This document shows, piece after piece, positions 1 to 22,109 of a stretch of DNA of 40,069 nucleotides (within the stretch, counting starts at the first letter, position 1; every line of letters starts with the position of its first letter). The notes beneath the pieces are model-generated. The model saw only the letters and a list, made by a program, of their open reading frames with translations. It searched no databases and was not told the origin of the DNA. The stretch is taken from assembly GCA_025201365.1 (NCBI GenBank), contig JAIXMF010000099.1, positions 1 through 40,069 of the forward strand, given 5' to 3'. The position numbers and the translations under genes were made by a program. Source of the stretch: Syncephalis plumigaleata (lineage: Eukaryota; Zoopagomycota; Zoopagomycetes; Zoopagales; Piptocephalidaceae).

Positions 1-1737
1 TAATCAAATGACTTACCTTGATGTCTAGTCGTTGTAGTTCGAGTATATTGAACAAGTTATTATTAATAAATACTATTAGTTAGCAGTAAACACCATCAAT
101 TACTTACCAAGGTGGGCTATGCCCATGTTGTGTAAGTCCTAATAATATATGGTTAATATGGTTCTAGTATTAATTATAGTTATATTGTTTACCTGGAGCC
201 CCAGCAGAATTTGTCGAACGATTGTTTTCACCTCGGCTTCAGGAAGAGGTCGAAGGCGCTCTATCCCGTAGCGGAAGAGGTCTCCTCCTTTGGCTAATTT
301 GATAATAAGGAATGTTCCATAACCATTCTGATGGAAACTAATACCGCGCAATATATGTCGCTGTTGTCGAAATATTTGCATAATAGCCCACTCTTTTTGC
401 AGCGATGTATCCTGGTCATTGGCTGTTTAATGCGACCTCTTCTTCAGTGTGGCGGATATTCCCCTGTAGACTGTGCCAAAGCTACCACTAGATGCGCACG
501 TTAGCTATTCATTATAGCACTTCCCTGTATTTAGCTATTTGTTCACTTACCTGCCGAGACGCTCCGTAGTATGATAGTAATCGCCGAGCATCTGTACGTG
601 TTAGTAGTAATATTGTATACATTTGTTTCATTTACCTGTGTATAATAAACAGGCAACATGCTCTAATCCGGCTGTTCTAGCGCGGTATATACAAAACTGT
701 CTGTATATATATTATTAGCTTAAGTTTATAAAGAAGTCGTAACTTACAACACCAACGCTTATTTCATAATACCAACATTTCCAAATGCGCTGTGTTTATC
801 TTCTGTTGATTGTTTACTACAGAATGATTAGCTTGAATATTTGATCGCACATACCAACAACTTACTACTTAAGGCAACCGAACCTTCATTCTAATAAATG
901 GTTAGTTAAACGTTCAATACATTTGAGCATAGACTTACTGTGATATGGATCATGCCATTCTTCTAATGAGCTGCAGGTTAGATTAAATTCATCGTTTAAT
1001 ATGGTTATGATCTTACCTCTGATATGACTACAGCACAGTTCTTATCGAGAGGAAACGTATAATCACTGATGTATTGCAATTAGTAAGTAGATCAGGGTGA
1101 CATAATAGTAACTTACCAGCCAGCCTCATTACCGAATGATAGCTTGTCATCACGGTAAAGTAGCAATTCTGTAGATAGGTTAGTTATTGTTGTCAATATC
1201 ATTTAAACACAGCTTACCTTGCTTATCATCATCTACCGTCACCCACCCTACTAGCTTCGCGCGTTTCTCCTGCTTCAGCTCGAGCCACTCAAAAGGCACA
1301 TGAATAAATTTATTGTGTTTTTTCCCTACACCTGAGCCATCGTCGCCAGCAGTTGATGGTTGCGCTGGCTTTGGTGATGGCTCTGCTGATTGGAGTGGCA
1401 CCAACTCCGAGGCAGCAGCAGTAGCAGTAGCAGGAGAAGGAGTAATGGCGGGGACGGGAGTAGGAGTAGTGGTAGGAGCAGTGGTAGTAACGGGAGCGGT
1501 GGCAGCGGCAGGAGCAGGAGCGGTAGCAGGAGCAGGAGCGGTAGCAGGAACAGGAGCAGAATTAGAGGCGGCAATAAGTACTCTTCCCTCGCCGATACCA
1601 GCAGTGGTAGCTGGTATTAACATAGGCGCGGATTTTGATGCTGGCACTAGCAGTGGAGCTGAAACTGGAGCTGGAGTTGATGATTTAGTGCTATTGCTGC
1701 CATTGCTAGCACTAATAGAGGAGGCACCTTGTTCCAT
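1..1737 (-). pseudogene. Left copy of FHA-domain Ser/Thr kinase, disrupted, 5' part identical to intact copy
   Basis: Exon 1 (1737-1218) and the next three small exons, to about 933, appear identical to the intact right copy, including the Ala/Pro/Thr-rich N terminus. Beyond 933 the copy decays. The FHA exon near 790-835 has a 1-nt deletion that shifts frame. The linker exon near 650-720 contains an in-frame TAG. The exon over the glycine loop and VAIK motif (about 385-487) carries three separate 1-nt deletions relative to the right copy, which put a TAA where the ATP-binding lysine should be. Downstream exons for the alphaE region (139-381) and the 8-nt microexon site (about 17-24) are still recognisable. 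The rest lies outside the window. It cannot encode a complete kinase as it stands. Confidence 0.85.
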
Positions 1738-1919
1738 CTTGAAAGCGTAGTCGTTGAGTATATCGCGGTAAGAGTATAGAAAGTAGGGGTGGAGCTGTAT
1801 GAAACTTAAGTAAAAACTTGCGCGTAAACCGAGGTTGAACTAAATAGTGGATAGAACTGGAAGAGTAGCGGAATAAGAGGTTGTGCATAGCCCAGTACCT
1901 ACTGTCGCCATCACTAGTG

Positions 1920-1929
1920 GCTTTATATA
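1920..1929 (-). promoter_or_regulatory. TATA-like box of left kinase copy
   Basis: A TTATATAAAG match on the minus strand lies about 180 bp upstream of the left kinase start codon. It is the mirror of the site at 10338-10347. The surrounding 1738-2080 holds no other gene signal and is the duplicated promoter and leader. Confidence 0.5.
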
Positions 1930-2080
1930 ACGCAACACATAGGTCATAAAACTGTAGCTTCAGTTTATACCGCTACACTTCCTCTAGTACGCTTTGTACC
2001 TGGGAATATTTCAAACTCATACTGCGTAGAACTGAGCAGAACTGAACAGCTCTAGCACTATAATAATCACATTTTTTTTC

Positions 2081-2945
2081 GATCTTTGCCAATACTTGAC
2101 CAATTTCGACGCGGCAAGTTCGCTTACATTGCTTGACATTTGACTAAATACGCTGTGCACATTTAATGTAGATATCTTTATTCATGATAAATTTACAGAG
2201 TGTAGAAGATATTGGTCGTCAAGATAAACAAGCAAAGTGACTGCGCTCTTGCATCGTCTTTATTTGGAAGGTGGTTTTGCTCTATGTAAGCAGACACGAT
2301 TTGCCTGATTATTGACAAAGCACTTCCGCACCGATACCGTTTACCAAGATTTCCTTCCATCCATTCATCCATTTTTTACGATCTTTGCCAATACTTGACC
2401 AATTTCGACGCGGCAAGTTTGCTTACATTGCTTGACACTTGGTAGAATACGCTGTGCACATTTAATGTAGATATCTTTATTCATGACACATTTACAGGGT
2501 GTATAAGATATTGGTCGTCAAGATAAACAAGCAAAGTGACTGCGCTCTTGCATCGTCTTTATTTGGAAGGTGGTTTTGCTCTATGTAAGCAGCCACGATT
2601 TGTCTGATTATTGACAAAGCACTCCCGCACCGATACCGTTTACCAAGATTTCCTTCCATCCATTCATCCATTTTTTACGATCTTTGCCAATACTTGACCA
2701 ATTTCGACGCGGCAAGTTTGCTTACATTGCTTGACACTTGGTAGAATACGCTGTGCACATTTAATGTAGATATCTTTATTCATGACACATTTACAGGGCG
2801 TATAAGATATTGGTCGTCAAGATAAACAAGCAAAGTGACTGCGCTCTTGCATCGTCTTTATTTGGAAGGTGGTTTTGCTCTATGTAAGCAGCCACGATTT
2901 GTCTGATTATTGACAAAGCACTCCCGCACCGATACCGTTTACCAG
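2081..2945 (+). repeat. Tandem array of three 299-bp units
   Basis: The landmark GATCTTTGCC recurs at 2081, 2380 and 2679, a period of exactly 299. Variant positions define unit types. The kinase-proximal unit (B) reads TTGACTAAATAC, ATAAATTTACAGAGTG and CACTTCCGCA. The middle unit (A) and inner unit (A') read TTGGTAGAATAC and CACATTTACAGG, with A' differing at GGGCGT against GGGTGT. The order from kinase to IleRS is B, A, A'. No ORF spans a unit. Each contains TTGACAAAG next to an imperfect inverted repeat (TTTGTC / GACAAA). Confidence 0.93.
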
Positions 2946-4087
2946 GATCCCCTTCCTTTCTTTCCTCTTTTACTAGTGCTTATGAGGTTGACAGTTCATC
3001 CCATTCTTTCGACGCTGTTGGCTCATCCCAATTCAGATATCGCAAGCTATCGTTTTCCTCATTTCTTTGTTCACTTATCCAACACAACGCTTCCAAAAAC
3101 GATTATCAAACAGCTATTCCACTATGTTACACAATCCTTGCCAAAAAATTCACACGCCGTTATTCCACTTATGCACTGCAGCCACGTCCTTACAATATCG
3201 CGCTGCAATCTGGCTTAATCCTGTGCACGTTGTCACCGTCAACTACTATTTAATCCTATCCTATCGGAACTAACCGACCGCACACTGCATCCGTTACCTA
3301 CCTCAACTGTCTACGTCTTTTGCGCTTTTGTTTTTCTTTCGTTTTCCACCATCATTCTGCTACTCTTTTCTTGTAATGACACTTTCTACATAATACTGTC
3401 GCTTATATAATAGAATGAGTTATTCTTTATTATATTTGTTTGTACGGCGTTAATAATAAGTATACTATTAGGTATTATATATTTGCCCTTTATTTGCTTG
3501 AATGTACACATGCATGGGACATTGGTTGTTGGATCTACAGCAGAAAGTAGCAGCTACTTAAGCGATTGGGACTAGTGCAGAGTAGTGGAACGGGGCACGC
3601 ACTGCGATACAGTTTGCATCGAGCGCTAATTACCCAAATTCTTAAGTATGCTGCTATGGGCTGTAGTAATCCGCAATCAATGTAAGCGGTACTTGAGTGT
3701 CCTGGATAGTTGGAAGGCTAACGCCGTGGCAGAGTTCTGCTATTACAAGACCCTCATTTATTGCGGTAGGTGGATGCTGTTTATGTTCGCTATTACGCAG
3801 ATCGAAAGATTGCTCAATAGTATTCCGTGGGGAATTCTAGGACATACAACGGCATCCGCCTCGCTACCCTTTTGCTACTAATTATTTTGATTAATTAGAT
3901 AGCCGTCTATTCATATTACGAGGATACACGCAACGCACAACAATAATTAGAAGGTAAGTAAATATAGCCACTCGTGCATACAATCAATACTAATAGCTGC
4001 CGTTTACTAATTATACTCTTTATTATTCATTTACAACGCTATCAACCATTTAATTGCTGCCATTATAGTCTAAACATTGTAATCATA
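2946..4087 (+). other. Non-coding left-arm stretch between array and IleRS fragment
   Basis: The first 400 bp are pyrimidine-rich on the plus strand. The rest is mixed sequence with only short ORFs, the longest being 77 codons at 3648-3881 and 102 codons at 2910-3218, and neither resembles a known family. Near 3905-3958 a plus-strand reading (TAT-TAC-GAG-GAT-ACA-CGC) faintly resembles the YxxD segment that follows the KMSKS loop in class Ia synthetases, but it contains a TAA. No catalytic-domain HIGH or KMSKS motif was found. This may be decayed upstream IleRS sequence. Confidence 0.4.
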
Positions 4088-4195
4088 GGAAGCATATTTG
4101 GGTTGCCTAAGCCAGCATTGTTTGGCTTAGGAGGGATAGGGGTAGCTTACTGGTCTATGGCCGGTATTGCTTTGGGTGTACACAAATATGCTTCC
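4088..4195 (+). mobile_element. 108-bp MITE-like element (left arm)
   Basis: Terminal inverted repeats GGAAGCATATTTG / CAAATATGCTTCC are perfect over 13 bp and bounded by TA on both sides, as in Tc1/mariner-type target duplications. A second perfect hairpin (CCTAAGCCA / TGGCTTAGG) lies inside. No transposase is encoded. It sits in or next to an intron-like region just before the recognisable IleRS exons. The same element is present in the other arm, so it was inserted before the arms became identical. Confidence 0.6.
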
Positions 4196-4260
4196 TATGC
4201 GGGTTTTCCTTCACTTAATAAACATATTATAACATAATACAATCAACTTAATAACAGTGG

Positions 4261-5496
4261 ATATTGATTACGTTTATCTTTTTGCATTCTCATCGTTACT
4301 TGATAAATCATTATATCTTACATGGGGCTACATTTTCTGCCACGTTAATTAGCAATACTTACAAAGTATTCTCGTTCAATAAAGGTATGTCGATAAGAAG
4401 TGTGAATAGCATACATAACGGTAGAACTAATACTTGCCTTGTTTATTGTAGTTATTCAAGAATTGAATCGCTTTACCAACTCACAACTATCGGCGTTCTA
4501 CTTTCAATCTATCAATGAGCGCGTTTACGCTGACGACAAATTATCGTTGGCACGAAGATCAGCACAGACTGCCGTATACCGCGTAAGGAGGCATTGATAC
4601 TTGGTATGCAATTGTAGCTAAACAAGGAATGCCGCATAGATTATTGAGATGTACACACGCGCACTCGCACCAATTACTTGTCATTTAGCCGAGGAGGTTC
4701 AGCTTTTCTCCTCGTCGAGTTGGTCGACACCGCTTGATAGCGTATTCCAGTCGGGATGGATATCTCTGGTAAACACTTACAATCACTGTGCTATGTGTGG
4801 TCTAATACTCGAGCATTGGCAATGAATAGGATGATCGTTGGCATAATATTGTTTTGGAGCAGGACTGGACAGTGCTACGACACCTTTGTAGTCAGTACTA
4901 CCAGCTAGTCGGAAGGCGCGACAGGTCAAGTAAGTGCTATATGCAGTATACCAAATGATTTGTTTACAAATTTCATTGGCTGACAAGGGAATCAAGACAA
5001 GCGCGCAAATCGATCTGACACTAGAACTAGAAGACAGTGCAATATCTCCACTGGGCCAACTGCTACATAAATACGGTAAGACAGTAGTAGTAATAATAGC
5101 GATAGTGATATTGTTTGTATATATTTTATTAAGCAATACGCATTAGCATCACAACTACTTGAACTGTTCTTGTGTGCATCGGTTAATATTGCTACACAAT
5201 CGACATTAACCGCGAGAAATGACACTGTTCTTATTAGTGAAACGATATCATTACCAAGTAAGTATGAAGTGTGCAGTGTGAGTATGCCATGATAATGACT
5301 ATTGAGCGACAACGTAATAGACACTATGAATGGTGCATCTGGTCAAATGATTCTACGCTTATCGGCACGACATAAATGTCCGAGATGTTGGAGCTATCGA
5401 TCTAATCAACCGGAATGTCTATGCAATCGATGCCAGCTTGTTGTGAACAATACCAAGGGACACGTCATTGACACTGCTATGCATTCATATCACTAA
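4261..5496 (+). pseudogene. Mitochondrial-type isoleucyl-tRNA synthetase, C-terminal fragment (left copy)
   Basis: Exons read about 4261-4384, 4452-4582, 4640-4768, 4830-4929, 4988-5075, 5147-5257 and 5321-5496. The joined reading shows IleRS anticodon-binding-domain landmarks: LSAFYF, RRSAQTAVY, LAPITCHLAEE, SVFQSGWISL and DWTVLRHL. The C terminus is the zinc finger CPRCW...CLCNRC. Introns are 49-71 nt with good consensus sites. The N-terminal two thirds (Rossmann fold, HIGH, CP1 editing domain, KMSKS) is not found upstream. The junction from the 4830 exon to the 4988 exon is out of phase by one base with the strong donor at 4930; a weak donor at 4925 with the acceptor before 4998 would restore phase but drop the KTS segment. 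I call it a 5'-truncated, probably inactive copy. A short expressed C-terminal protein cannot be excluded. Confidence 0.7.
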
Positions 5497-5519
5497 TAGC
5501 AGCATCCCATCAACGGTGT

Positions 5520-6149
5520 ACTCGATATTCATGTTCTTACCAATGCTTTACACAATAAACATCCATCTTTACAATAACTATACATTGATTCTTCGAGTAA
5601 CTGCTGTTCTACATTAATGCAAATGGTGTATGTCGTGGATGAATCTATACTAGATGATTAGCCTTGCTGGGCCTTGACGACGACTGAAACGGTTAGTCCA
5701 CTCACTGACCGAGAATAACATCCGACTCCATTCTAACTGCCGAATACTTACTGCGGTATGTCAGCCATGTGATATGCTCAGTTTAATCTACCGATTGAGA
5801 TGACGACTGCCCATACTCATATAGAAATGCCGTCAATGGCAATAATCGAGTGTTTGCTGTGTTGGCAGTAATTAATGTAGCATAGATTGCATAATAGCAG
5901 TATCGCGTGTATCAATATCTATAATTGATCATATCATATGGATGTTAATAGATGATGATGATGATGATGGTATCATTAGTAGCAATAATTGCTAGCTGAT
6001 CATTCTAATCCATTCAACTAATAATGGATATCGTACACGAGTACTATATGATAAAGTAACGGTTTATAATTGGTATGTGTCTAACAACTAGATTCTATGT
6101 GTTTAGGATGATCGAATGAATCAGGTCGTTATTCAATAGGCTTGCTAGG
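5520..6149. other. Unique spacer at centre of inverted repeat
   Basis: These 630 bp show no similarity between the two halves. They contain a short trinucleotide run (GAT)6 at 5951-5969 and no ORF or exon chain that I can support. A few minus-strand splice-like sites (GTAAGT near 5755) do not connect into a protein. It separates the two convergent IleRS fragments and so contains both 3' ends. Confidence 0.7.
5951..5969 (+). repeat. GAT trinucleotide microsatellite
   Basis: About six GAT units lie in the palindrome spacer, with no coding context. Confidence 0.8.
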
Positions 6150-6172
6150 ACACCATCGATGGGATGTTGCTA

Positions 6173-7408
6173 TTAGTTACATGAATGCATAGCAGTGTCA
6201 ATGACGTGTCCCTTGGTATTGTTCACAACAAGCTGGCATCGATTGCATAGACATTCCGGTTGATTAGATCGATAGCTCCAACATCTCGGACATTTATGTC
6301 GTGCCGATAAGCGTAGAATCATTTGACCAGATGCACCATTCATAGTGTCTATTACGTTGTCGCTCAATAGTCATTATCATGGCATACTCACACTGCACAC
6401 TTCATACTTACTTGGTAATGATATCGTTTCACTAATAAGAACAGTGTCATTTCTCGCGGTTAATGTCGATTGTGTAGCAATATTAACCGATGCACACAAG
6501 AACAGTTCAAGTAGTTGTGATGCTAATGCGTATTGCTTAATAAAATATATACAAACAATATCACTATCGCTATTATTACTACTACTGTCTTACCGTATTT
6601 ATGTAGCAGTTGGCCCAGTGGAGATATTGCACTGTCTTCTAGTTCTAGTGTCAGATCGATTTGCGCGCTTGTCTTGATTCCCTTGTCAGCCAATGAAATT
6701 TGTAAACAAATCATTTGGTATACTGCATATAGCACTTACTTGACCTGTCGCGCCTTCCGACTAGCTGGTAGTACTGACTACAAAGGTGTCGTAGCACTGT
6801 CCAGTCCTGCTCCAAAACAATATTATGCCAACGATCATCCTATTCATTGCCAATGCTCGAGTATTAGACCACACATAGCACAGTGATTGTAAGTGTTTAC
6901 CAGAGATATCCATCCCGACTGGAATACGCTATCAAGCGGTGTCGACCAACTCGACGAGGAGAAAAGCTGAACCTCCTCGGCTAAATGACAAGTAATTGGT
7001 GCGAGTGCGCGTGTGTACATCTCAATAATCTATGCGGCATTCCTTGTTTAGCTACAATTGCATACCAAGTATCAATGCCTCCTTACGCGGTATACGGCAG
7101 TCTGTGCTGATCTTCGTGCCAACGATAATTTGTCGTCAGCGTAAACGCGCTCATTGATAGATTGAAAGTAGAACGCCGATAGTTGTGAGTTGGTAAAGCG
7201 ATTCAATTCTTGAATAACTACAATAAACAAGGCAAGTATTAGTTCTACCGTTATGTATGCTATTCACACTTCTTATCGACATACCTTTATTGAACGAGAA
7301 TACTTTGTAAGTATTGCTAATTAACGTGGCAGAAAATGTAGCCCCATGTAAGATATAATGATTTATCAAGTAACGATGAGAATGCAAAAAGATAAACGTA
7401 ATCAATAT
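6173..7408 (-). pseudogene. Mitochondrial-type isoleucyl-tRNA synthetase, C-terminal fragment (right copy)
   Basis: This is the mirror copy of 4261-5496 (coordinates sum to 11669) with the same exon chain, the same out-of-phase junction and the same CPRCW...CLCNRC zinc finger. It is identical until the last codons. The left copy ends MHS-Tyr-His-stop and this one ends MHS-Cys-Asn-stop, because exact arm identity stops at 6181. The two fragments converge on the unique spacer. No N-terminal synthetase exons precede it. Confidence 0.7.
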
Positions 7409-7473
7409 CCACTGTTATTAAGTTGATTGTATTATGTTATAATATGTTTATTAAGTGAAGGAAAACCCGCATA

Positions 7474-7581
7474 GGAAGCATATTTGTGTACACCCAAAGC
7501 AATACCGGCCATAGACCAGTAAGCTACCCCTATCCCTCCTAAGCCAAACAATGCTGGCTTAGGCAACCCAAATATGCTTCC
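7474..7581 (-). mobile_element. 108-bp MITE-like element (right arm)
   Basis: This is the mirror of 4088-4195, with the same 13-bp perfect terminal inverted repeats, internal hairpin and flanking TA dinucleotides. Confidence 0.6.
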
Positions 7582-8723
7582 TATGATTACAATGTTTAGA
7601 CTATAATGGCAGCAATTAAATGGTTGATAGCGTTGTAAATGAATAATAAAGAGTATAATTAGTAAACGGCAGCTATTAGTATTGATTGTATGCACGAGTG
7701 GCTATATTTACTTACCTTCTAATTATTGTTGTGCGTTGCGTGTATCCTCGTAATATGAATAGACGGCTATCTAATTAATCAAAATAATTAGTAGCAAAAG
7801 GGTAGCGAGGCGGATGCCGTTGTATGTCCTAGAATTCCCCACGGAATACTATTGAGCAATCTTTCGATCTGCGTAATAGCGAACATAAACAGCATCCACC
7901 TACCGCAATAAATGAGGGTCTTGTAATAGCAGAACTCTGCCACGGCGTTAGCCTTCCAACTATCCAGGACACTCAAGTACCGCTTACATTGATTGCGGAT
8001 TACTACAGCCCATAGCAGCATACTTAAGAATTTGGGTAATTAGCGCTCGATGCAAACTGTATCGCAGTGCGTGCCCCGTTCCACTACTCTGCACTAGTCC
8101 CAATCGCTTAAGTAGCTGCTACTTTCTGCTGTAGATCCAACAACCAATGTCCCATGCATGTGTACATTCAAGCAAATAAAGGGCAAATATATAATACCTA
8201 ATAGTATACTTATTATTAACGCCGTACAAACAAATATAATAAAGAATAACTCATTCTATTATATAAGCGACAGTATTATGTAGAAAGTGTCATTACAAGA
8301 AAAGAGTAGCAGAATGATGGTGGAAAACGAAAGAAAAACAAAAGCGCAAAAGACGTAGACAGTTGAGGTAGGTAACGGATGCAGTGTGCGGTCGGTTAGT
8401 TCCGATAGGATAGGATTAAATAGTAGTTGACGGTGACAACGTGCACAGGATTAAGCCAGATTGCAGCGCGATATTGTAAGGACGTGGCTGCAGTGCATAA
8501 GTGGAATAACGGCGTGTGAATTTTTTGGCAAGGATTGTGTAACATAGTGGAATAGCTGTTTGATAATCGTTTTTGGAAGCGTTGTGTTGGATAAGTGAAC
8601 AAAGAAATGAGGAAAACGATAGCTTGCGATATCTGAATTGGGATGAGCCAACAGCGTCGAAAGAATGGGATGAACTGTCAACCTCATAAGCACTAGTAAA
8701 AGAGGAAAGAAAGGAAGGGGATC
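7582..8723 (-). other. Non-coding right-arm stretch
   Basis: This is the mirror of 2946-4087. It has only short ORFs without recognisable similarity and a purine-rich plus strand near 8300-8720. No gene could be supported. Confidence 0.4.
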
Positions 8724-10186
8724 CTGGTAAACGGTATCGGTGCGGGAGTGCTTTGTCAATAATCAGACAAATCGTGGCTGCTTACATAGAGCAAAACCAC
8801 CTTCCAAATAAAGACGATGCAAGAGCGCAGTCACTTTGCTTGTTTATCTTGACGACCAATATCTTATACGCCCTGTAAATGTGTCATGAATAAAGATATC
8901 TACATTAAATGTGCACAGCGTATTCTACCAAGTGTCAAGCAATGTAAGCAAACTTGCCGCGTCGAAATTGGTCAAGTATTGGCAAAGATCGTAAAAAATG
9001 GATGAATGGATGGAAGGAAATCTTGGTAAACGGTATCGGTGCGGGAGTGCTTTGTCAATAATCAGACAAATCGTGGCTGCTTACATAGAGCAAAACCACC
9101 TTCCAAATAAAGACGATGCAAGAGCGCAGTCACTTTGCTTGTTTATCTTGACGACCAATATCTTATACACCCTGTAAATGTGTCATGAATAAAGATATCT
9201 ACATTAAATGTGCACAGCGTATTCTACCAAGTGTCAAGCAATGTAAGCAAACTTGCCGCGTCGAAATTGGTCAAGTATTGGCAAAGATCGTAAAAAATGG
9301 ATGAATGGATGGAAGGAAATCTTGGTAAACGGTATCGGTGCGGAAGTGCTTTGTCAATAATCAGGCAAATCGTGTCTGCTTACATAGAGCAAAACCACCT
9401 TCCAAATAAAGACGATGCAAGAGCGCAGTCACTTTGCTTGTTTATCTTGACGACCAATATCTTCTACACTCTGTAAATTTATCATGAATAAAGATATCTA
9501 CATTAAATGTGCACAGCGTATTTAGTCAAATGTCAAGCAATGTAAGCGAACTTGCCGCGTCGAAATTGGTCAAGTATTGGCAAAGATCGTAAAAAATGGA
9601 TGAATGGATGGAAGGAAATCTTGGTAAACGGTATCGGTGCGGGAGTGCTTTGTCAATAATCAGACAAATCGTGGCTGCTTACATAGAGCAAAACCACCTT
9701 CCAAATAAAGACGATGCAAGAGCGCAGTCACTTTGCTTGTTTATCTTGACGACCAATATCTTATACACCCTGTAAATGTGTCATGAATAAAGATATCTAC
9801 ATTAAATGTGCACAGCGTATTCTACCAAGTGTCAAGCAATGTAAGCAAACTTGCCGCGTCGAAATTGGTCAAGTATTGGCAAAGATCGTAAAAAATGGAT
9901 GAATGGATGGAAGGAAATCTTGGTAAACGGTATCGGTGCGGAAGTGCTTTGTCAATAATCAGGCAAATCGTGTCTGCTTACATAGAGCAAAACCACCTTC
10001 CAAATAAAGACGATGCAAGAGCGCAGTCACTTTGCTTGTTTATCTTGACGACCAATATCTTCTACACTCTGTAAATTTATCATGAATAAAGATATCTACA
10101 TTAAATGTGCACAGCGTATTTAGTCAAATGTCAAGCAATGTAAGCGAACTTGCCGCGTCGAAATTGGTCAAGTATTGGCAAAGATC
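8724..10186 (-). repeat. Tandem array of five 299-bp units
   Basis: The junction ...CAAAGATC recurs with its C at 8990, 9289, 9588, 9887 and 10186, exactly 299 apart. From the IleRS side the unit types are A', A, B, A, B, against A', A, B in the left arm. The extra 598 bp is therefore one duplicated A-B dimer. The B unit next to the kinase is shared by both arms. No coding potential was seen. Confidence 0.93.
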
Positions 10187-10337
10187 GAAAAAAAATGTGA
10201 TTATTATAGTGCTAGAGCTGTTCAGTTCTGCTCAGTTCTACGCAGTATGAGTTTGAAATATTCCCAGGTACAAAGCGTACTAGAGGAAGTGTAGCGGTAT
10301 AAACTGAAGCTACAGTTTTATGACCTATGTGTTGCGT

Positions 10338-10347
10338 TATATAAAGC
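10338..10347 (+). promoter_or_regulatory. TATA-like box of FHA-kinase gene
   Basis: TTATATAAAG lies about 180 bp before the ATG at 10530 and is followed by a pyrimidine-rich leader (CCACCCCTACTTTC). 10187-10529 contains no other gene and is read as the promoter and 5' UTR, directly adjoining the 299-bp array. Confidence 0.5.
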
Positions 10348-10529
10348 CACTAGTGATGGCGACAGTAGGTACTGGGCTATGCACAACCTCTTATTCCGCT
10401 ACTCTTCCAGTTCTATCCACTATTTAGTTCAACCTCGGTTTACGCGCAAGTTTTTACTTAAGTTTCATACAGCTCCACCCCTACTTTCTATACTCTTACC
10501 GCGATATACTCAACGACTACGCTTTCAAG

Positions 10530-13016
10530 ATGGAACAAGGTGCCTCCTCTATTAGTGCTAGCAATGGCAGCAATAGCACTAAATCATCAACTCCAGCTCC
10601 AGTTTCAGCTCCACTGCTAGTGCCAGCATCAAAATCCGCGCCTATGTTAATACCAGCTACCACTGCTGGTATCGGCGAGGGAAGAGTACTTATTGCCGCC
10701 TCTAATTCTGCTCCTGTTCCTGCTACCGCTCCTGCTCCTGCTACCGCTCCTGCTCCTGCCGCTGCCACCGCTCCCGTTACTACCACTGCTCCTACCACTA
10801 CTCCTACTCCCGTCCCCGCCATTACTCCTTCTCCTGCTACTGCTACTGCTGCTGCCTCGGAGTTGGTGCCACTCCAATCAGCAGAGCCATCACCAAAGCC
10901 AGCGCAACCATCAACTGCTGGCGACGATGGCTCAGGTGTAGGGAAAAAACACAATAAATTTATTCATGTGCCTTTTGAGTGGCTCGAGCTGAAGCAGGAG
11001 AAACGCGCGAAGCTAGTAGGGTGGGTGACGGTAGATGATGATAAGCAAGGTAAGCTGTGTTTAAATGATATTGACAACAATAACTAACCTATCTACAGAA
11101 TTGCTACTTTACCGTGATGACAAGCTATCATTCGGTAATGAGGCTGGCTGGTAAGTTACTATTATGTCACCCTGATCTACTTACTAATTGCAATACATCA
11201 GTGATTATACGTTTCCTCTCGATAAGAACTGTGCTGTAGTCATATCAGAGGTAAGATCATAACCATATTAAACGATGAATTTAATCTAACCTGCAGCTCA
11301 TTAGAAGAATGGCATGATCCATATCACAGTAAGTACTATGCTCAAATGTATTGGACGTTTAACTAATTGTTTATTAGAATGAAGGTTCGGTTGCCTTAAC
11401 TAGTAAGTTGTTGACATGTACGGTCAAATATTCATGCTAATCAATTCTGTAGTAAACAATCAGCAGAAAAATGGAAACAGCACATTTAAAAATGTTGGCA
11501 CGATCAATCTACGCGTTTATAGTTGTAAGTTACAACGACCTTCTTTATAAACTTAAGCTAATAATATATATATACAGACAGTTTTGCATATACCGCGTTA
11601 GAACACGCAGAATCAGAGCAGGTGTCGCCTGTTTATTATACACAGGTAAATGAAGACAAATGTATACAATATTACTACTAACACAATACAGATGCTCGGT
11701 GATTACTATCACACTACGGAGCGTCTTGGCAGGTAAGTGAACAAATAGCTAAATACAGGGAAATTCTATAATGAATAGCTAACGTGCGCATCTAGTGGTG
11801 GCTTTGGCACAGTCTACAGGGGAATGTCATCCACTACTGAAGAAGAGGTCGCGATTAAACAGGCAGGTAGCGGCGATACGTCGCTGCAAAAAGAGTGGCT
11901 TACCATGCAAATGTTTCGACAACAGCGACATATACTGCGTGGTATTAGTTTCCATCAGAATGATTGTGGAACATTTCTTACCATCAAATTAGCCAAAGGA
12001 GGAGACCTCTTCCGCTACGGGGTAAAGAGCCTTCGACCCCTTCCTGAAGCCGAGGTGAAAACAATCGTTCGGCAAATTCTGCTGGGACTCCAGGTAAGTA
12101 ACACAACTATGATTAATACTAGAACCATATTAACCATATATTATTAGGACTTACACAACATGGGCATAGCCCACCTTGGTAAGTAATTGATGGTGTTTAC
12201 TGCTAACTAATAGTATTTATTAATGATAACTTGTTCAATATTCTCGAACTACAACGACTAGACATCAAGGTAAGTCATTTGATTATTTGCTTTATTACAA
12301 ATATTAACACAAACATAGCCGGAAAATGTTCTTTTCAAGGACGAGGGTCATACGCACGCCCTCCTAGCAGATTTTGGATTGTCGCACGTATTCGCATATT
12401 CATATATGCCTATCCAGTCGCTTATTGGTACGCCGTCGTATATGGCACCTGAGATTCTCTTGTGCCAGGAAGGTGCGAGTAAAATTATGCAATCCTTCAT
12501 AAAGCAAGGTGATGCCGGTATGAAGAAAGTTGCTTATATCTTAAATTCATACCTTGGATGCAGTACAAGTGGCGATATGTGGGGCGTAGGCGTGCTTACA
12601 TATTTGCTGCTATGCCGTAAGTTAATCTCTGCTTAAAATTAATGATAGCTAACGCGATATACTATAGATGATCATCCATTCCCGGGATGCATGGGTAATG
12701 ATGATTATGAAGAATGCCTAAAGGAAATTTTAAATGAACAAACACCATTTAAAACTATAAATTTCAATGAACCTGTGCATGAAGGTAGGTTACGAGTACA
12801 CCAATAAAATCAGCTAACTACAATTAATACTGTTTAGGGATTGATTTTATTAACCGCCTTCTTCAGTTGAATCCTATCCAACGAATGACGGTCAAGGATG
12901 CCCTGCAGCATCCATGGCTTAAATCGTTGGAAGAAACGAACAAGCGCGAGCTTGCTAGCCACTCACAATCCGAGCAGTCTGAGCAATCACCAAAGCGACC
13001 ACGGTACGCTCCTTAA
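10530..13016 (+). CDS. FHA-domain Ser/Thr protein kinase (Chk2/Rad53-like architecture)
   Basis: Fourteen exons give 594 codons with every phase consistent: 10530-11049, 11099-11150, 11202-11250, 11305-11328, 11378-11402, 11453-11524, 11578-11645, 11692-11732, 11796-12093, 12148-12178, 12262-12269, 12319-12616, 12668-12784, 12838-13016. Residues 1-130 are Ala/Pro/Thr/Ser-rich. An FHA-like fold follows (LSFG, KNGMIHI, NGNSTF). The kinase domain has GSGGFGTVYRG, VAIK, HLDIKPEN, ADFGL, GTPSYMAPE and DMWGVGV. The tail is Ser/Gln-rich and ends in a basic SPKRPRY that may be a nuclear signal. FHA kinases of this type act in DNA-damage or meiotic checkpoints; that role is inferred. Oddities: the phosphothreonine-binding Arg expected after FG is Asn, the catalytic loop is HLD rather than HRD, and one exon is only 8 nt. 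Confidence 0.88.
12262..12269 (+). other. 8-nt microexon encoding the catalytic-loop Asp
   Basis: ACATCAAG is bounded by ...GACTAG upstream and GTAAGT downstream. Joined to G from exon 10 it reads Asp-Ile-Lys, completing HLD-IK before PEN in exon 12. Skipping it shifts frame and removes the catalytic base. The same site is conserved in the left pseudogene copy. Confidence 0.85.
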
Positions 13017-13900
13017 ATGCCCTCTCTAGTGCATCATACAATCTTGTTCAATAAATGTATTACTATTGTCATTAACAATTTAAATTACTGCATACAAACA
13101 TTTCTATACTTGCTACTCCATTCATTCTACTATTGCTCTCTTTATTCACTATACTTATTTATTTCCATCATTCTATCTTTTCACTACCTATACATGCTTG
13201 CCACTATCCCCATTTCACACTGCATGTATTCACTATTCCACCTATTGCTCATTCCCCTTGTTGTTTACTTCTTTACACAGCACGCGTCTTCTTAGTGTCA
13301 ACTGCATTTCCCCGTCATTTCCCTTACCACTAAACAGTAAGTGCCTTCTTTGTGTCAACTACATTCCACTTGTCAGTAAACAACCCGCGTCCACTTCTTC
13401 TTGGCTATATGTTAGTTATCCCTCTTTCTTTTATTTACCTATTTACTTTCTCAATGATACGCGTCTTCTTCGTGTCATTCTATTCCACTTACTCCATCTT
13501 TCACTTTAGCATACACATTCCCAATAGCAGCTATTCTGCCATACTATCTTTATGACTTTTATTTATCTCTCTGTTTTCCTCTTGCTCTAAACTATCTACA
13601 TGCTCACCTGTCGTTATTATTACTATACCAATAAGCCTTGTTTATTGTTTGTTCTAGTCTTTTGTTTTCTATCACTGTCCTGCTTATTTATCAATGTTTA
13701 AGCGTTCACTACTCTCGTTGTAATATGCACCTTTCACTTTTACCACTCTCTTCCGTCATCTGTTTGTATGCCACCATTACGTCATGCTTTTATTTGTATT
13801 TTTATTTGTTTACTGCCATCTCCATACTCTATTCACCACATACAAGCATACACTGCTTCTTCGAATAAACTAGCATACGTGTTCATGCGCCCTTTCTTGC
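13017..13900. other. Pyrimidine-rich intergenic stretch
   Basis: A possible polyadenylation signal (AATAAA) lies near 13050 for the kinase. The rest is C/T-rich on the plus strand. It includes three diverged copies, near 13282, 13342 and 13460, of a roughly 30-bp motif (CTTCTTxGTGTCAxxxxATTCC). ORFs of 60-100 codons here are low-complexity by-products of the base bias. Confidence 0.6.
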
Positions 13901-14036
13901 TCATTCCTTGCTCATTCGTGACAATTCAGTCATTCCACTAACTACTGCTTGTTTATTACATTGTTTATCATATATTCACTTTGTTCACTCGTTGCTCTCT
14001 ATGCAATCAATCGTAAGCATTATCACCATAACTTAT
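13901..14036 (+). repeat. Small inverted repeat, left copy
   Basis: About 136 bp are reverse-complementary to 14683-14818 with only scattered mismatches. The shared core includes TACTGCTTGTTTATTAC and GTTGCTCTCTATGCAATC. The copies flank about 650 bp containing the PUF60-like fragment. Confidence 0.88.
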
Positions 14037-14045
14037 CTATCATAC

Positions 14046-14200
14046 TAGTTTATTGTTACTTATAAGTACATGACATGGTAATATTCAATTATACTAGTAC
14101 ACTTGTATCGTCTACCTTATAGAATTGATGATGATAGTTATCGCTATCAATGAAGGATCCATTACCAAATACTGAATTATTATTATTACACTTGTCATTA
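14046..14200 (-). repeat. Dispersed repeat, copy 1
   Basis: Read on the minus strand this matches 21700-21848 on the plus strand (shared GATAACTATCATCATC, TACAAGTGTACTAGTAT). Copy 2 lies directly before the second WNRD element, while here it lies at the 3' end of the PUF60-like fragment. Confidence 0.82.
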
Positions 14201-14454
14201 TGGTGATGCTTGATGTAATCCCAATCCTTTTAATGCCTTCATGCCTTCGATCAATGTGCCAGGTATCATCGCCGTAATGACATGGAGACTATTGCCGCCT
14301 ACTTCAAATCCATTCATTGCTGCTATGGCCACCGGGACTACATCATCCGATTCGAAATCAATAAATCTAGTGCAGTTTATTAGATGGATTTACACGCATG
14401 TCTTCTGCTACCATCTTACTCGTAAGTCTTGTGCTGTCTTGTAGCCATATTCGG
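14198..14454 (-). pseudogene. PUF60-like RRM fragment
   Basis: Two exons on the minus strand, 14454-14420 and 14366-14198, joined in phase across a 53-nt intron with donor GTAAGA and branch CTAATA. They encode an RNP1-like stretch (RQHKTYEFIDFE) and the end of an RRM (AMNGFEVGGNSLHV), followed by about 25 residues and a stop. The spacing and the GG-x-L-x-V ending resemble the second RRM of the poly(U)-binding splicing factor PUF60/FIR. Nothing before or after it forms the rest of such a protein, so it is a truncated duplicate. The parent gene is not in this window. Confidence 0.55.
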
Positions 14455-14682
14455 CTAATGCTATTAACAATTTAATGGTTAACAAACTAGTGAATGAAAT
14501 GATCACATATGCATATATGCTTACAACAAGAATGCAATACTCGATTTTACCAAACTGCTTCAATGATAGTTTACAGTGTCAACTATACCATATTAAATAA
14601 ATTGGGTTTACATTACAAATACTCGCATACTCTATAATCATATGCTGTATTTGATGAGCATTGTAAATCGTGTATTTATTGA

Positions 14683-14818
14683 ATAAATTATGATGATAAT
14701 GCTTACGATTGATTGCATAGAGAGCAACGAGTGAACAAAGTGAATATATGATAAACAATGTAATAAACAAGCAGTAGTTAGTAGAATGACTGACTTGTTA
14801 CGAATGAGCAAGGAATGA
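14683..14818 (-). repeat. Small inverted repeat, right copy
   Basis: This is the partner of 13901-14036. It ends a few bases before the WNRD-element ORF at 14815. Confidence 0.88.
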
Positions 14819-15065
14819 ACAAGGATTGTAAAGATGACATGAAAGGTAAAGGATTCGAGTATCATGTATGGAATCGGGATATGGCAGCATGTCTGAATTC
14901 TATTCAGATTATTCTCAGTCTTCGCAATGGAAATGGTGTTACAGAACAACTTCACCAAAGTGCCATTACTTCTAAACGTTCAAGAAATGATGGCCAAGGA
15001 CAACGAAGAACCCAAACACTAAAAAAACAAATTAACACACACACCGGATTGTATCGTCAATCACA
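14815..15065 (+). mobile_element. WNRD-motif element remnant, copy 1
   Basis: The ORF from 14815 contains VWNRDMAACLN-x-IQIILS-x-R and then a basic, low-complexity tail. The DNA is similar to 21846-22090 over its length, including the tail TTGTATCGTCAATC. The RD-x-A-x-x-N pattern at the C-terminal side, with a downstream arginine helix, recalls the RuvC-III motif of TnpB/Fanzor-type nucleases. No RuvC-I, RuvC-II or zinc finger precedes it, so at most this is a 3' remnant. It ends about 20 bp before the POP4 start codon. Confidence 0.45.
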
Positions 15066-15086
15066 CACCCTTTTTTGCTTATAATA

Positions 15087-16030
15087 ATGACGGAATCATC
15101 TACACTATACTCTCCATTACCAGCTGATCTAGAGCAGCATCCTGCTATCTCGTCTGAAGCGGATAAAGAGGTATGTTTACACGATTAATTCTAGTTGGTA
15201 ACCGCTAGAATAATGTTGATCCACTAGATTGCTGTTGATCCAACTACACGACGATTTACGCCAAAATTCGTATGCGAAGCGTTGGAAGAAGGCCCGCAAT
15301 TAGATGCAACAGCCCAACGAGTTTACCAAACGAAAGTGGCTAGTCGCGCGATTCCTATAGAAAAGTCAGAGCTGAAGTCATTACGTAAACGACGACACCG
15401 ACAACCTCGCAACAAAATACCCGTTCTTACGGCGAAACAAAAACGCGCAGCAGACGTGCATACCATTCCTGTAGACTGTCATCGGTAGGTGTTATCAATA
15501 TCGATTTGATCATCGCGTAGTTACATTCGCTTATTGACAATACTAGCTATGAGTTGTTCGAGCCGCTTCATACATTGTGGACGCAGTACATATCGGAAGT
15601 GCAAGGTACAAGCAATAGTCCTCATACGCTTTTACCCAAACTACTAAAAGCAGATCTACATGGTAGTGTTATGAAAGGTAGGCGATACAGCTACTGTTGT
15701 TGTTTAAAGCGCATATCTCTTACAATAGAATAATAGTGGTACGCTCTCGTTGCCCTAGCTATGTTGGAACTACTGGTATAATGATTATGGAGACTAAAAA
15801 TCTATTTCGTATTATTGATCAACGCAATCGTCTTATTTGTAAGTAGCGTAAAACGATATTCTCAATGGAACATGTTTATTTATTTATATTTAGCGGTACC
15901 AAAAGCGAATAGTGTCTTTGCATTATCGATCAATCAGCACGAGTACATCATCTATGGTAGTCAGTTTTGCTATAGAGCGGCCGATCGAGCTGTCAAGAAA
16001 TTTAAAGGACAAAATACGATTGATTTGTAG
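15087..16030 (+). CDS. POP4: RNase P/MRP protein subunit Pop4 (Rpp29)
   Basis: Five exons: 15087-15170, 15228-15484, 15547-15677, 15737-15838, 15894-16030. The first half is polar with a basic stretch (KSLRKRRHRQPRNK). The second half is the Rpp29/Sm-like barrel: LHTLWTQYI, LKADLHGSVMKV, VRSRCPSYVGTTGIMIMET, LFRIID, then SVPKANSVF and IIYGSQFCYRAADR. These match the conserved ADLHG, VG-x-x-G and ET-x-x-x-F-x-II pattern of the family. Pop4 binds the RNA core of RNase P and MRP and is needed for tRNA 5' and rRNA processing in the nucleus. The fourth exon uses the second of two closely spaced AG sites (ATAG then AATAATAG), because the first gives a stop. The start ATG lies about 20 bp after a repeat remnant. 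Confidence 0.9.
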
Positions 16031-16133
16031 CTGTTGTTCATCGGCTTAAATTTATTAAATAAAAATAGTTGTATTTTACATTCATATTTTATTATATTTA
16101 GTTTTTCTCACTTTCTTTTCGTATACACATACT

Positions 16134-18932
16134 ATGACACGCTCATTTATTCTTTTCCGACGAAATGGACTAGGGACACTTTTACAAATGCGAGTCACTG
16201 CGGGCATTTCGCGGAATGTGTGGCGTTCCATGTCTACAGACTCGTCGGTAGTTTCGGAATTGTTGGAGTATATGAAGGAAACAAAACACGCTGAATCTAC
16301 TACAGTTAACGATACATCGAGCTCGATTTACCAAAATGATGGATTTCCAGTTATAAAGCGTACTACAACAGCGATAACGCCATTAAAGGATATTGTTATT
16401 GAACATGGACAATCAGCAAACCATGGCAGGCCGTTCGAGCGAGATAATCTAGCTTCTGTGCCTACCGTCAATCTTCGTAAACATTCCAAACTAGTAGAAG
16501 AACTTGAGCTGCATACAAAGTCTAGCGATATCGAAGGGATTAATGCGACAATACAAAAAATGAGCACTAATGAAACCATTACTCAGGTCGACACGACATT
16601 AATGGGAAGTGTATTTCAACGAATGCTTAATGGAGCAAATCCCTCAGTTTTGCAAGCATTTCTCAATACATTATATGCGAAGGATATTCGATTACCTACG
16701 GCTGATCATTACGTACAATGGATTCGATATCACATCCGTGTGTCTCAGTGGTATCGCGGGATTTGTGTTTACGAGAACTATCGAGTGCGTGCTGAATTGC
16801 ATAATAGTGTCGATGCAATTGTCGCAATGGTGGACGCGTTTATCGCCAATGAACAAGTACAAATCACCATTGATCGAAAGTATGGATTCGGTCATCAGCG
16901 ATGTCGGGTGCTTTGCTACGATATAATACAACGTTGTAGTCCATTATTGAATGAAGCGTTAAATCAATTCCTGATATCGTTATGTACACGTGCTATGCCT
17001 GATAAACTGGCGCTCTATCAAACTGCTCTGTCTAAGGGATATACGGTTTATATGGAAACGCAACGCGAACTATTTCGTAACTTGTACATTGATCGAGACA
17101 CGGAAATTGAACCAATCCTAGCGCTGTACTGGAGTATTCGACAATCGGGCTCCACGCCGGATCCCAACACAACATTTCACTTGATGCATTTGTTACTTAC
17201 CAAGCAGCAAACTAGCGCTTCATCATCTGCACTGGAAAAGCCGGAAGATATAGCGTTGAATATTTTCAATGATGTCTACGCAAATGGTGGCACATCTTCC
17301 GTAAGGATAGCAGTGTATCTAATAATGAAATTATCCAAATTAAATCGGCTTGCGGATGTTAAACTCGTATATGACAAGGTTAAAAGCAATCATCCCGATT
17401 CTAATCACATTCTCGAATTGGACTGTGGCTACGCGAAGACATTGCTACACACAGGAAACATCGAAGAAGCGCAAGCAATGCTTGAAACTATGATGACCTA
17501 CACTTTTCATGAACAGATAGACGGGCATTACATTGGCCCTAATGGCGAGATGTTAGTGGATTCTAGTACGTCAGAGAGACTGATAAACGTTCATAATAGG
17601 CAGTTTGAATTGATAGCATCGTTTAACGAACGGTTTATTAAAAAGTCAGCCATGCAAGAAGTATTGACAACGGAGGAATTACTTGTTAATGCAATACGTG
17701 AACTCGAGTTGAGACATTCGGATTATAGCGTGACGAGCGACGATTCAAAGTTGTCATTCATTCGACCTTTGGATGTCAAGCACGATTACGTCGCTGATGT
17801 CCAGTCTAAAACGATCGATATATTGCCGATTACCATGCTGGCCGGAGAGCTTATTACGAAATATCGCGTAGATGCCAATATTACTGCAGCCTATGCGTTG
17901 TACAATAGATTACGTGATCTAGGATACATCAATCATAGTCTAATAGGAGTAATGCAATGGGTACCATTTTACCAAAAGGATTGGGCAGGCGTTCTACATT
18001 TATTGGACGATATGCGTTCGTTTAAAATTCCACTTACAACCGTCTTGCTTACTGCATTCATCAAGAGCTACGTACACCTAAAGGAACCATTCAAAGCCGA
18101 GGGATTATTACTTGCCTATTTGTCTACACGAAATCACGTTAAACATTTGGAGGATACTCGATGGCTTAGTCCCGAGAAGTTATGCCTGAGGATCGTTTCT
18201 TGCTACATAGAGACGAAGCAATCGGCCAATGCAGCTCAGTTCATTCTTCGATGTCATGAACGTCATTTAGATATATCTGCAAAAACCACGAAAATGCTAC
18301 TGGATGAAGCGATATTACGTGGTTCGGTAGACGATACGGTAGCCCTGCTAGACTTTATCAAACAGAATGGATTAAAAATGAGTGCTGCCGCCTACTCGCG
18401 TGTCATGAGTTTCATGGCTAAACAAGGACGACTTCCCATTGTACTTGCCTATTACGCCGAGGCAGATGCGCACAATCTACAGGGCAATCCTTACTTGATC
18501 ACCAGTGTACTTCAGGCGTACATGCGTACTCGTCAGCACACGAATGGTTGGCAGTTCTTCTTGGAAGCACGGCAACGACATCAATTTTGCCTAAACGCCG
18601 TCAGTCTCTCGGTAATGCTTAGCATAGTTACTTATATGAAATCTATAAAGATAGTTGACGAGCTACTACGTCTTGCACAAATCGATGCCGTGCCATTCAA
18701 CGAACGACACTGGTTGATGCTCGAGAAAGCGTATCGCTACCATGGTGCATACGATCAATGTCTTAACGTGCTGCTCGATAGAATGCCACAAGCTGGATTT
18801 ACTCCACCTTATGATATATTACAAAGAGTTGACGATAAACTAAAATCCCGCGGTCTAACTGCTATGCAGTGCAAGCTACAACAAGCTATTCGTAACTGGT
18901 ATCCTAATTATCAGCAGCAGCAGCAGCATTAG
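16134..18932 (+). CDS. Mitochondrial PPR/helical-repeat protein, intronless
   Basis: A single 932-codon frame begins 103 bp after POP4. Residues 1-35 are rich in Arg, Ser, Thr and hydrophobics without acids, like a mitochondrial presequence. The rest is alpha-helical with PPR-like units in several places, clearest toward the C terminus (AYSRVMSFMAKQGRLPIVLAYY, then ITSVLQAYMRTRQHTNGWQFF). Such proteins usually bind organellar transcripts and act in their processing or translation. The individual repeats are divergent and I cannot name an orthologue. It ends in a CAG run (YQQQQQH) just before the stop. Lack of introns contrasts with most neighbours. Confidence 0.75.
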   Translation: MTRSFILFRRNGLGTLLQMRVTAGISRNVWRSMSTDSSVVSELLEYMKETKHAESTTVNDTSSSIYQNDGFPVIKRTTTAITPLKDIVIEHGQSANHGRPFERDNLASVPTVNLRKHSKLVEELELHTKSSDIEGINATIQKMSTNETITQVDTTLMGSVFQRMLNGANPSVLQAFLNTLYAKDIRLPTADHYVQWIRYHIRVSQWYRGICVYENYRVRAELHNSVDAIVAMVDAFIANEQVQITIDRKYGFGHQRCRVLCYDIIQRCSPLLNEALNQFLISLCTRAMPDKLALYQTALSKGYTVYMETQRELFRNLYIDRDTEIEPILALYWSIRQSGSTPDPNTTFHLMHLLLTKQQTSASSSALEKPEDIALNIFNDVYANGGTSSVRIAVYLIMKLSKLNRLADVKLVYDKVKSNHPDSNHILELDCGYAKTLLHTGNIEEAQAMLETMMTYTFHEQIDGHYIGPNGEMLVDSSTSERLINVHNRQFELIASFNERFIKKSAMQEVLTTEELLVNAIRELELRHSDYSVTSDDSKLSFIRPLDVKHDYVADVQSKTIDILPITMLAGELITKYRVDANITAAYALYNRLRDLGYINHSLIGVMQWVPFYQKDWAGVLHLLDDMRSFKIPLTTVLLTAFIKSYVHLKEPFKAEGLLLAYLSTRNHVKHLEDTRWLSPEKLCLRIVSCYIETKQSANAAQFILRCHERHLDISAKTTKMLLDEAILRGSVDDTVALLDFIKQNGLKMSAAAYSRVMSFMAKQGRLPIVLAYYAEADAHNLQGNPYLITSVLQAYMRTRQHTNGWQFFLEARQRHQFCLNAVSLSVMLSIVTYMKSIKIVDELLRLAQIDAVPFNERHWLMLEKAYRYHGAYDQCLNVLLDRMPQAGFTPPYDILQRVDDKLKSRGLTAMQCKLQQAIRNWYPNYQQQQQH

Positions 18933-19111
18933 TAGTTGCTGTATTTCATCACAGTATGGCATCATTCACAATGAATATAATTCTGTAATAAATTCGCATC
19001 ATTCATTATAATAAGCGTGTGTGCTTTCTTACTATTATTTTTCTCTTGTTTTTTCTATATTTTTATTGAAGTTAGTACTTTCTTCTTGAATAATCTATCT
19101 CCTCTTAGTTA
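18933..19111 (+). other. Intergenic gap with poly(A) signal
   Basis: AATAAA occurs near 18987 downstream of the PPR gene. The remainder is T-rich and contains the short promoter of the next gene. Confidence 0.45.
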
Positions 19112-20392: not shown

Positions 20393-20426
20393 ATCATATG
20401 TGTTGTAATGCAACTTTATTAAAACA
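20389..20426. terminator. Shared 3'-end region of convergent genes
   Basis: Only 34 bp separate the two stop codons. AATAAA-type signals lie on both strands: AAATAAAT at the plus-strand stop and TTTATT at 20413-20418, which reads AATAAA on the minus strand. Each transcript probably ends inside the other's coding region or overlaps its 3' UTR. Confidence 0.55.
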
Positions 20427-21553: not shown

Positions 21554-21725
21554 AATACGAGGAATATTGATGATGTGCATGTGTGTGTGAGTTACAGTGT
21601 TTTTCCATCCAATTTGCGCATTTATCCTTTAACATTTGCAGTTCATTAATAAATGGATTTACACAATTGTTAACACCATTATTACCATAGAAATGCCAAT
21701 TGACACAGCATGATAATAATAACAA
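21554..21725 (-). other. Possible exon or repeat carrying a CANWMEK motif
   Basis: The minus strand reads an open frame of about 50 codons (CVNPFINELQ, then KDKCANWMEKHC). A matching plus-strand segment at 22110-22175 reads KANCANWMEKAC. The two lie as an inverted pair around the second WNRD element. No family was recognised. Confidence 0.35.
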
Positions 21726-22090: not shown

Positions 22091-22109
22091 ATACAGGAGT
22101 CCTTGTAAG

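Follow-up and report, generated by a model that had tools for sequence, protein, structure and literature searches.

The 40,069-nucleotide stretch analysed here (the window, which is the entire contig C383) very probably holds a single haplotype of a palindrome that belongs to an old, dispersed family of kinase-gene pairs, homogenised by gene conversion. Each member has two head-to-head CAMK-type kinase genes around a central core of three segments, I-S-U, with 299-bp tandem repeats and a segment M lying between kinase and core.

In the window, the left arm (933–5488) and the right arm (6181–11334) differ only in array length. Base-by-base alignment of 933–5488 with 11334–6181 gives 0 mismatches, and the sole indel is one gap of 598 bp, corresponding to two units of the 299-bp tandem repeat, of which there are three at 2073–2969 and five at 8702–10197. 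The homology continues outward, and 1–932 and 11336–12285 are separated by 76 substitutions (summed over 100-bp bins; 78 when realigned with the family) and by indels. At 73/932 differences per site, the probability of finding none in 4556 bp would be ~10^-161. The identity drops within a few bp at 932/933 and 11334/11335, positions that fall in intron 4 of the kinase gene (11329–11377 in the gene model). The initial annotation described identical arms, diverged flanks with indels and an abrupt step in a kinase intron, all of which are confirmed, and the binned arm alignment that it proposed, run in 100-bp bins, reproduces the step. A sharp edge beyond which homology continues, as found at 932/933, characterizes palindromes under conversion. 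The inner edge is softer, with 6 differences in 34 bp (5489–5522), and past 5522 lies an unrelated spacer S of 624 bp (5523–6146).

The outer left arm (1–932, minus strand) is not homogenised and carries a decayed kinase copy from the region of exons 5–11, in which the projected exons have three in-frame stops and 11 of 13 GT donors. As the window is all of C383, this arm is truncated by the contig end. Its differences from the right arm comprise 60 transitions and 18 transversions, and 59 of its 78 variants are also present in another copy of the family, where 25.7 would be expected at random. This transition excess and recurrence make contig-end noise a poor account of the divergence. The palindrome had been thought to end at 12285, which is wrong, since the left arm is cut and the arms of C24a, the corresponding palindrome on the other haplotype, reach 7.4–7.5 kb around a 634-bp spacer. 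On the right, the domain extends through segment T (13342–14007), a dispersed repeat of the outer right arm that also adjoins solitary I-S-U copies, to an outer end at 14008–15000, where identity between haplotypes rises from ~88% to 98–100% at ~15,000. Segment M lies at 2974–4236 and 7433–8695. With an E limit of 1, a search of positions 1–15000 against Rfam gave three matches, none of which came near the curated scores. A Fanzor/TnpB-like tail was considered at 14857–14973 and 21852–21968 and dropped; the 66-residue piece compared with Pfam had no match.

The kinase gene (10530–13016, plus strand) has 14 exons, 13 of 13 introns with GT-AG borders and an open frame of 593 codons. Exons 1–4 (10530–11328) are mirrored in the left arm at 939–1737 on the minus strand. 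The product contains a kinase domain (Pkinase match, 3.1e-46), its best solved relatives being DAPK1 (1.8e-34) and RAD53 (1.4e-26), and it is predicted to be a CAMK-type kinase. An N-terminal motif may resemble the FHA domain of CHK2/RAD53-type kinases; no Pfam FHA match was found N-terminal of the kinase domain up to E 10. The frame is fully open in 14 of the 21 projected arm copies, and dN/dS ranges from 0.26 to 0.65, with a mean of 0.35 (28 pairs from eight chosen copies). At the level of sequence, this shows a kinase evolving under purifying selection.

The palindrome centre derives from an isoleucyl-tRNA synthetase gene whose 3′ end was captured. Segment I (4241–5522, plus strand; second, inverted copy at 6147–7428, minus strand) corresponds to the anticodon-binding part and a zinc-finger-like end, and S to sequence downstream of the gene. 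In the L037 copy, segment I matches PF08264 (3.4e-6; 27.4 bits versus a cut-off of 25.1), and the zinc finger scores under the cut-off. The catalytic domain, tRNA-synt_1, has no match on C383. The full-gene region is found on C112, where I, reversed S and U are contiguous (C112:1367900-1371300) and tRNA-synt_1 matches lie upstream (C112:1365732-1368414).

The structure is not confined to one locus, as the initial annotation had viewed it, but is dispersed over many contigs, which also leaves its parallel with sex chromosomes or mating-type regions unsupported. The 32.6-Mb assembly contains 38 matches to the kinase segment, 26 of which form 13 inverted plus/minus pairs, all facing outward, and 12 of which are unpaired. 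Contig C24 (741 kb) carries three palindrome pairs and one unpaired match, and several copies each are found on C373 and C329, the latter with two widely spaced pairs. Ten further loci, picked for being pairs, were read, and all ten are palindromes, with arms of 3.6–7.5 kb that are 93.8–99.9% alike. Together with the window this makes 11 palindromes, and segment M is present in both arms of every one (the C111 copy being 1122 bp). Solitary I-S-U loci were considered as additional palindromes and rejected, none of the three read being palindromic. The M/I and M/U junctions are common to the copies, suggesting that a single ancestral palindrome was copied later to other places.

Window positions 16100–18930 have one other place in the genome, on C24, with 99% identity, and by flank similarity, the sole basis of all haplotype assignments given here, C383 appears to be the second haplotype of C24. 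Comparison of the four arms at each locus shows arm-to-arm conversion. The arms are clearly closer within a chromosome than between homologues at C24c/C290 and in the inner part of the window and C24a; at the locus C24b/C324 this holds for C24b and not for C324. Within C24c and within C290, each 300-column bin shows 100% arm identity, for ~4.1 kb and ~6 kb, respectively, versus 92.0–99.7% per bin between the two haplotypes, and their right flanks differ by 1.03% substitutions. Likewise, the inner arms of the window and of C24a are 100% identical within each and 88.6–98.8% between them (bins 3645 to 5393). The assembly arms carry scattered 1–2-nt indels, and contigs C373, C90, C157, C267 and C383 start inside kinase arms, so that a consensus of both arms could hide differences below ~1%.

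The C24b arms are mutually 100% identical over 4257–8734, and both are 92–100% identical to the right arm of C324 and 85–98% to the alignable parts of its left arm. Moreover, the left arm of C24b carries I where that of C324 carries U. One haplotype at this locus has the sequence of its right arm in both arms, its palindrome extending ~1.3 kb further inward. The spacer has opposite orientations in C24b and C324; this inversion, and the differing flanks of the near-alike palindromes C24a and C157b, are compatible with rearrangement without proving it. At C373b/C72 all four arms are alike, which makes this locus uninformative on the comparison within and between haplotypes.

A tree of segment M places the two arms of a palindrome as sisters in 8 of the 11 cases. 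The exceptions are C324 and C24a, the two not homogenised (arms 93.8–95.3% alike), and C157b, whose left arm groups with the right arm of C24a. The window and C24 are 84.5–94% identical inside the palindrome (13,250 to 15,000) and 97.6–100% outside it, from 15,000. Out to 14188, the window right arm is 98.9% identical to the left arm of C24a versus 93% to the colinear right arm, and past 932 the window left arm is close to neither. Comparing haplotypes at this locus and at three others supports the proposal that an old inverted duplication had its inner part recently converted.

It is proposed that when one arm suffers a break or a stalled fork, it is repaired from the other arm of the same chromosome. 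Such repair would erase arm differences over kilobases, the pattern observed, and leave sharp edges like that at 932/933. Copying of I over U, as the haplotype comparison suggests, would move the palindrome centre inward, and arm-to-arm repair could flip the spacer, as seen in the difference between haplotypes. Occasional exchange with other loci, suggested by the grouping of C324-left with another locus, may import divergent sequence and so account for haplotypes that differ more within the palindrome than just outside. Many kinase copies stay readable under purifying selection.

A Foldback-like transposon with terminal inverted repeats, half palindromes being its solo or damaged ends, is an unlikely alternative source of the family. 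The dispersed copies, the long inverted arms whose tandem arrays vary in length, and the occurrence of 12 unpaired matches alongside 13 pairs resemble Galileo, for which long, internally repetitive inverted repeats, solo repeats and exchange between copies are described (PMC3573991). C24b and C324 even have the inverted end TACAGGGTTTTTCC on both sides. However, these are haplotypes of one locus, and they alone among the 11 palindromes have the TACAG end on both sides; the TA-CAG boundary was rejected as a transposon end, being two-sided only there and without a target duplication. The arm ends differ among loci, with no outer terminus common to all copies, in contrast to Galileo. No target-site duplication stands out in eight palindromes: the longest word common to both ends is 3–6 nt, and random end pairs do equally well in 5–99% of 500 draws, the lowest value being that of C24c (6 nt, 5.2%). 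Unlike those of Galileo, the arms include a kinase gene, and the sequence outside the 3.9-kb-type spacers (those of C373b and C72) showed no transposase. Flanks were searched for an empty site at four places: the right flanks of the window and of C373a each led to a second haplotype, also with the family, the left flank of C24a had no second copy, and the right flank of C111 is itself repetitive. It is very unlikely that the palindrome is instead a selfish gene unit that spreads through recombination and needs no transposase. In such a unit, breakage-prone arms would be mended from the sister arm or from another copy, which would at once homogenise and spread the palindrome; the centre would move inward as one flank is copied over the other (B to A; at C373b/C72, B to U-x-U), and the kinase, which distantly resembles DNA-damage kinases, would have a bearing on that repair.

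An assembly artefact, by collapse of the arms to one consensus or a chimaeric contig from an inverted read, might be suspected from the absence of differences in 4556 bp, when other arms show 1–2-nt indels, and from the contig starts within kinase arms. This is hardly probable in view of the asymmetric spacer, the unequal arrays, the transition bias in outer arms 8% apart and the graded arm identities of the ten other pairs; the assembler separated haplotypes differing by 0.3–8%, and would likewise have kept arms of such divergence separate. The single sharp boundary between near-zero and 8% divergence could also reflect two duplications of unequal age, a recent inner one and an older, separate outer one, without conversion. 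Yet the haplotypes share the palindrome architecture while each has its own identical arms, and conversion is far likelier than a series of new duplications that independently produced the same junctions at several loci, which makes this account most improbable.

Comparable structures are known from other systems. Inverted paralogous gene pairs in Caenorhabditis are reported as divergent or convergent homologues with long, near-perfect inverted intergenic sequence (at one locus, 2207-bp arms, a 126-bp spacer and 99.7% identity), their structure being kept as the sequence drifts, and gene conversion is proposed (PMC1803023). Here, in contrast, one dispersed kinase family has a common captured core and arms up to 7.5 kb, and conversion is visible from two haplotypes in one genome. 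Mammalian X and Y palindromes are described as having arms >99% alike through conversion, sharp edges and rare inversions (PMC3723533, PMC8981503), whereas the present arms are far smaller, lie on many contigs and bear no sex-chromosome sign. The centromeres of Candida tropicalis are likewise fungal inverted repeats, of 3–4 kb, around a core (homogenized and alike genome-wide; PMC7292649). These occur once per chromosome, whereas the present palindromes have gene-bearing arms and occur several to a contig, as the three pairs and one unpaired match on C24 and the multiple copies on C373 and C329 attest, which excludes an inverted-repeat centromere. Gene-bearing palindromes in parthenogenetic animals such as Adineta vaga and Folsomia candida are thought to permit conversion, and are mostly larger synteny blocks rather than a single gene family sharing a core (PMC7953838). 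The top-ranked literature matches contained no report of a fungal palindrome family of this kind. That the present genome is fungal is suggested by its 24 chitin synthase matches (best 9.0e-259), although 4 of 14 bacterial control genomes give such matches too; Fungi_U3 scores 59.1 bits, under its cut-off of 95.

The best-known conversion-homogenised palindromes are those of mammalian sex chromosomes. Here, a whole family is present on both haplotypes of a compact, apparently diploid or dikaryotic fungal genome, offering many independent replicates of conversion, and each locus has a nearby outgroup haplotype with which to measure the length of tracts, their edges, the inward growth and the flipping of spacers. 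A kinase family evolving pairwise in concert would give misleading gene trees and copy counts.

The arms of the palindrome, 933–5488 on the left and 6181–11334 on the right, each hold a copy of a kinase gene, the two copies lying head-to-head, and base-by-base comparison with binned identity shows that two units of a 299-bp tandem repeat are the sole difference between them. The initial annotation was thus right that the arms agree apart from array length, that identity ends abruptly within a kinase intron (the step falls in intron 4) and that the flanking homology, 1–932 against 11335–12285, is diverged. From 11336 outward, 76 differing positions were counted in the binned comparison and 78 in a second alignment, in addition to indels. 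Of the 78 variants in the left outer arm, 60 are transitions and 18 transversions; 59 recur in another copy of the family, against a random expectation of 25.7, so the divergence is not sequencing noise. Near-100% arm identity could mask small differences if the arms were polished together, while arms several percent apart would have stayed distinct, since the same assembly separates haplotypes 0.3–8% apart. Segment M, between the 299-bp array and the core, contains an inverted repeat at 4084–4199 (CATAGGAAGCATATTTG / CAAATATGCTTCCTATG) around a smaller inverted repeat, for which no Rfam match was found.

The right-arm kinase model has 14 exons, 593 codons and GT-AG borders in 13 of 13 introns. 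It matches Pkinase at 3.1e-46, and among proteins of solved structure it is related to DAPK1 (1.8e-34) and, ranking below it, RAD53 (1.4e-26); Pfam detected no FHA domain. The left outer copy is decayed, with three in-frame stops on exon projection. A full open frame is present in 14 of 21 projected arm copies across the assembly; the left copy on contig C111 has a single stop four residues before the end, and at C290, C24a, C373a, C373b and C111 (letters tell apart palindromes on one contig) short indels throw the other arm out of frame; these could be real, or assembly errors of the sort present elsewhere in the arms. Among eight chosen copies dN/dS is 0.26–0.65 (mean 0.35, 28 pairs). A protein search gave 179 exon matches, other kinases included. 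Just past the gene, 13001–14000 shows strong strand bias (GC skew -0.47, AT skew -0.31). Two direct copies of a possibly coding short piece, 75% alike, lie at 14857–14973 and 21852–21968; their presumed likeness to a Fanzor/TnpB tail is without Pfam support. ARAGORN calls a tRNA-Pyl at 30504–30581, on top of coding sequence that resembles a HECT ligase; the call is probably spurious.

The palindrome had been viewed as a single locus, a view that does not hold. With 933–2500 as the query, 88 matches were found in the genome, and with 1–932, 38, which by contig and strand sort into 13 pairs and 12 unpaired matches. All 13 pairs face outward (+ then −), eleven at distances of ~7–13 kb and two, both on C329, at ~21 and ~33 kb. 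Ten pairs besides the window's, picked for looking like pairs, were examined and all are palindromic, with arms of 3.6–7.5 kb (some ending at a contig end) that are 93.8–99.9% alike. The spacer is ~0.6 kb in the window, C24a, C157b, C24b and C290, 2.4 kb in C24c, C324, C373a and C111, and 3.9 kb in C373b and C72. Five contigs (C373, C90, C157, C267 and the window's own, C383) start within kinase arms; the assembly therefore breaks at palindromes and undercounts them. Chitin synthases found in this genome indicate that it is probably fungal.

The window spans contig C383 from end to end. The single-copy stretch 16100–18930 of its right flank has one further match in the genome, 99% identical, in C24, and flank identity to C24 is 97.6–100% over 15,000–20,400 but 84.5–94% over 13,250–15,000. 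Judged by flank similarity, C24a is thus the other haplotype of the window's palindrome. The flanks of C24b/C324, C24c/C290 and C373b/C72 are also alike (0–1.1% substitutions). The palindrome C157b, at a contig end, is 97–98% like C24a, but its left flank differs.

Independent evolution of the arms would predict that left matches left and right matches right across haplotypes. The pattern at C24c/C290 is the opposite: the arm body is 100% identical in all bins within each haplotype and 92.0–99.7% between them, with whole-arm left–right substitutions of 4/4471 and 17/6634, respectively. In the inner arms of the window and C24a (bins 3645 to 5393) the values are 100% within and 88.6–98.8% between. 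These comparisons support the gene conversion between arms proposed in the initial annotation. Both arms of C24b resemble the right arm of C324, its left arm holds segment I where the C324 left arm retains U, and the spacer orientation is opposite in the two; at C373b/C72 all four arms are nearly alike and the four-arm comparison is silent. Left and right arms are sisters in the segment M tree in 8 of 11 palindromes, the exceptions being C324, C24a and C157b. In both trees the C324 left arm clusters with a different locus, C24c/C290, a placement suggestive of exchange among loci. Two results fit the pattern less neatly. The arms of C324 and C24a are only 93.8% and 95.3% alike, respectively, and the right arm in the window, out to 14188, is 98.9% identical to the C24a left arm versus 93% to the colinear right arm, which does not single out a donor or a direction of conversion there.

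The main rival explanation is that the palindrome is a foldback-like element. An inverted end does bound both sides at one locus, in two haplotypes (C24b/C324), but only there; the outer arm ends vary between loci, and no target duplication stands out among eight palindromes. Flank searches for an empty allele returned two occupied second haplotypes, one flank without a match and one repetitive flank, and mobility of the palindrome is unsupported. A short Tc1/mariner-like element at 21593–22174 (TA followed by CAGTGTTTTTCCATCCAATTTGCGCA, with the inverted copy at its opposite end) has an end that recurs left of C157b, and a variant of it bounds C24b/C324. At the outer right palindrome edge lies a small second inverted repeat, 13896–14036 / 14683–14823 (141 nt, 96%, 646 bp between).

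The core consists of segment I, spacer S and the sequence beyond it, U. Segment I matches the end of an isoleucyl-tRNA synthetase: the solitary copy L037 scores above the PF08264 cut-off (27.4 versus 25.1 bits), its zinc finger below cut-off. On C112, catalytic-domain matches at 1365732–1368414 are followed, unbroken, by I, S reversed and U; I-S-U is thus the 3′ end of the synthetase gene with its downstream sequence. As an oddity, this 3′ end has turned into a dispersed repeat (L037, L038, L039, L040), with at least 75 genome-wide matches for I+S and at least 41 for U, and no palindrome was found at three solitary copies examined. Many solitary copies lie next to a dispersed repeat that contains a gag-like frame, as at L037 (2045–2708) and L039 (6395–7057). 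A 3.4-kb flank, C111:16500–19900, has 118 matches and is nearly full-length at eight other places. The M/I and M/U junctions are common to type B palindromes on four contigs, so the simplest reading is one ancestral palindrome around I-S-U that would have spread afterwards. Conversion across the centre, in one direction or the other, would then give rise to type A (I-S-I) and to the U-x-U form seen in C373b and C72, and we infer a polarity from type B to these two forms.
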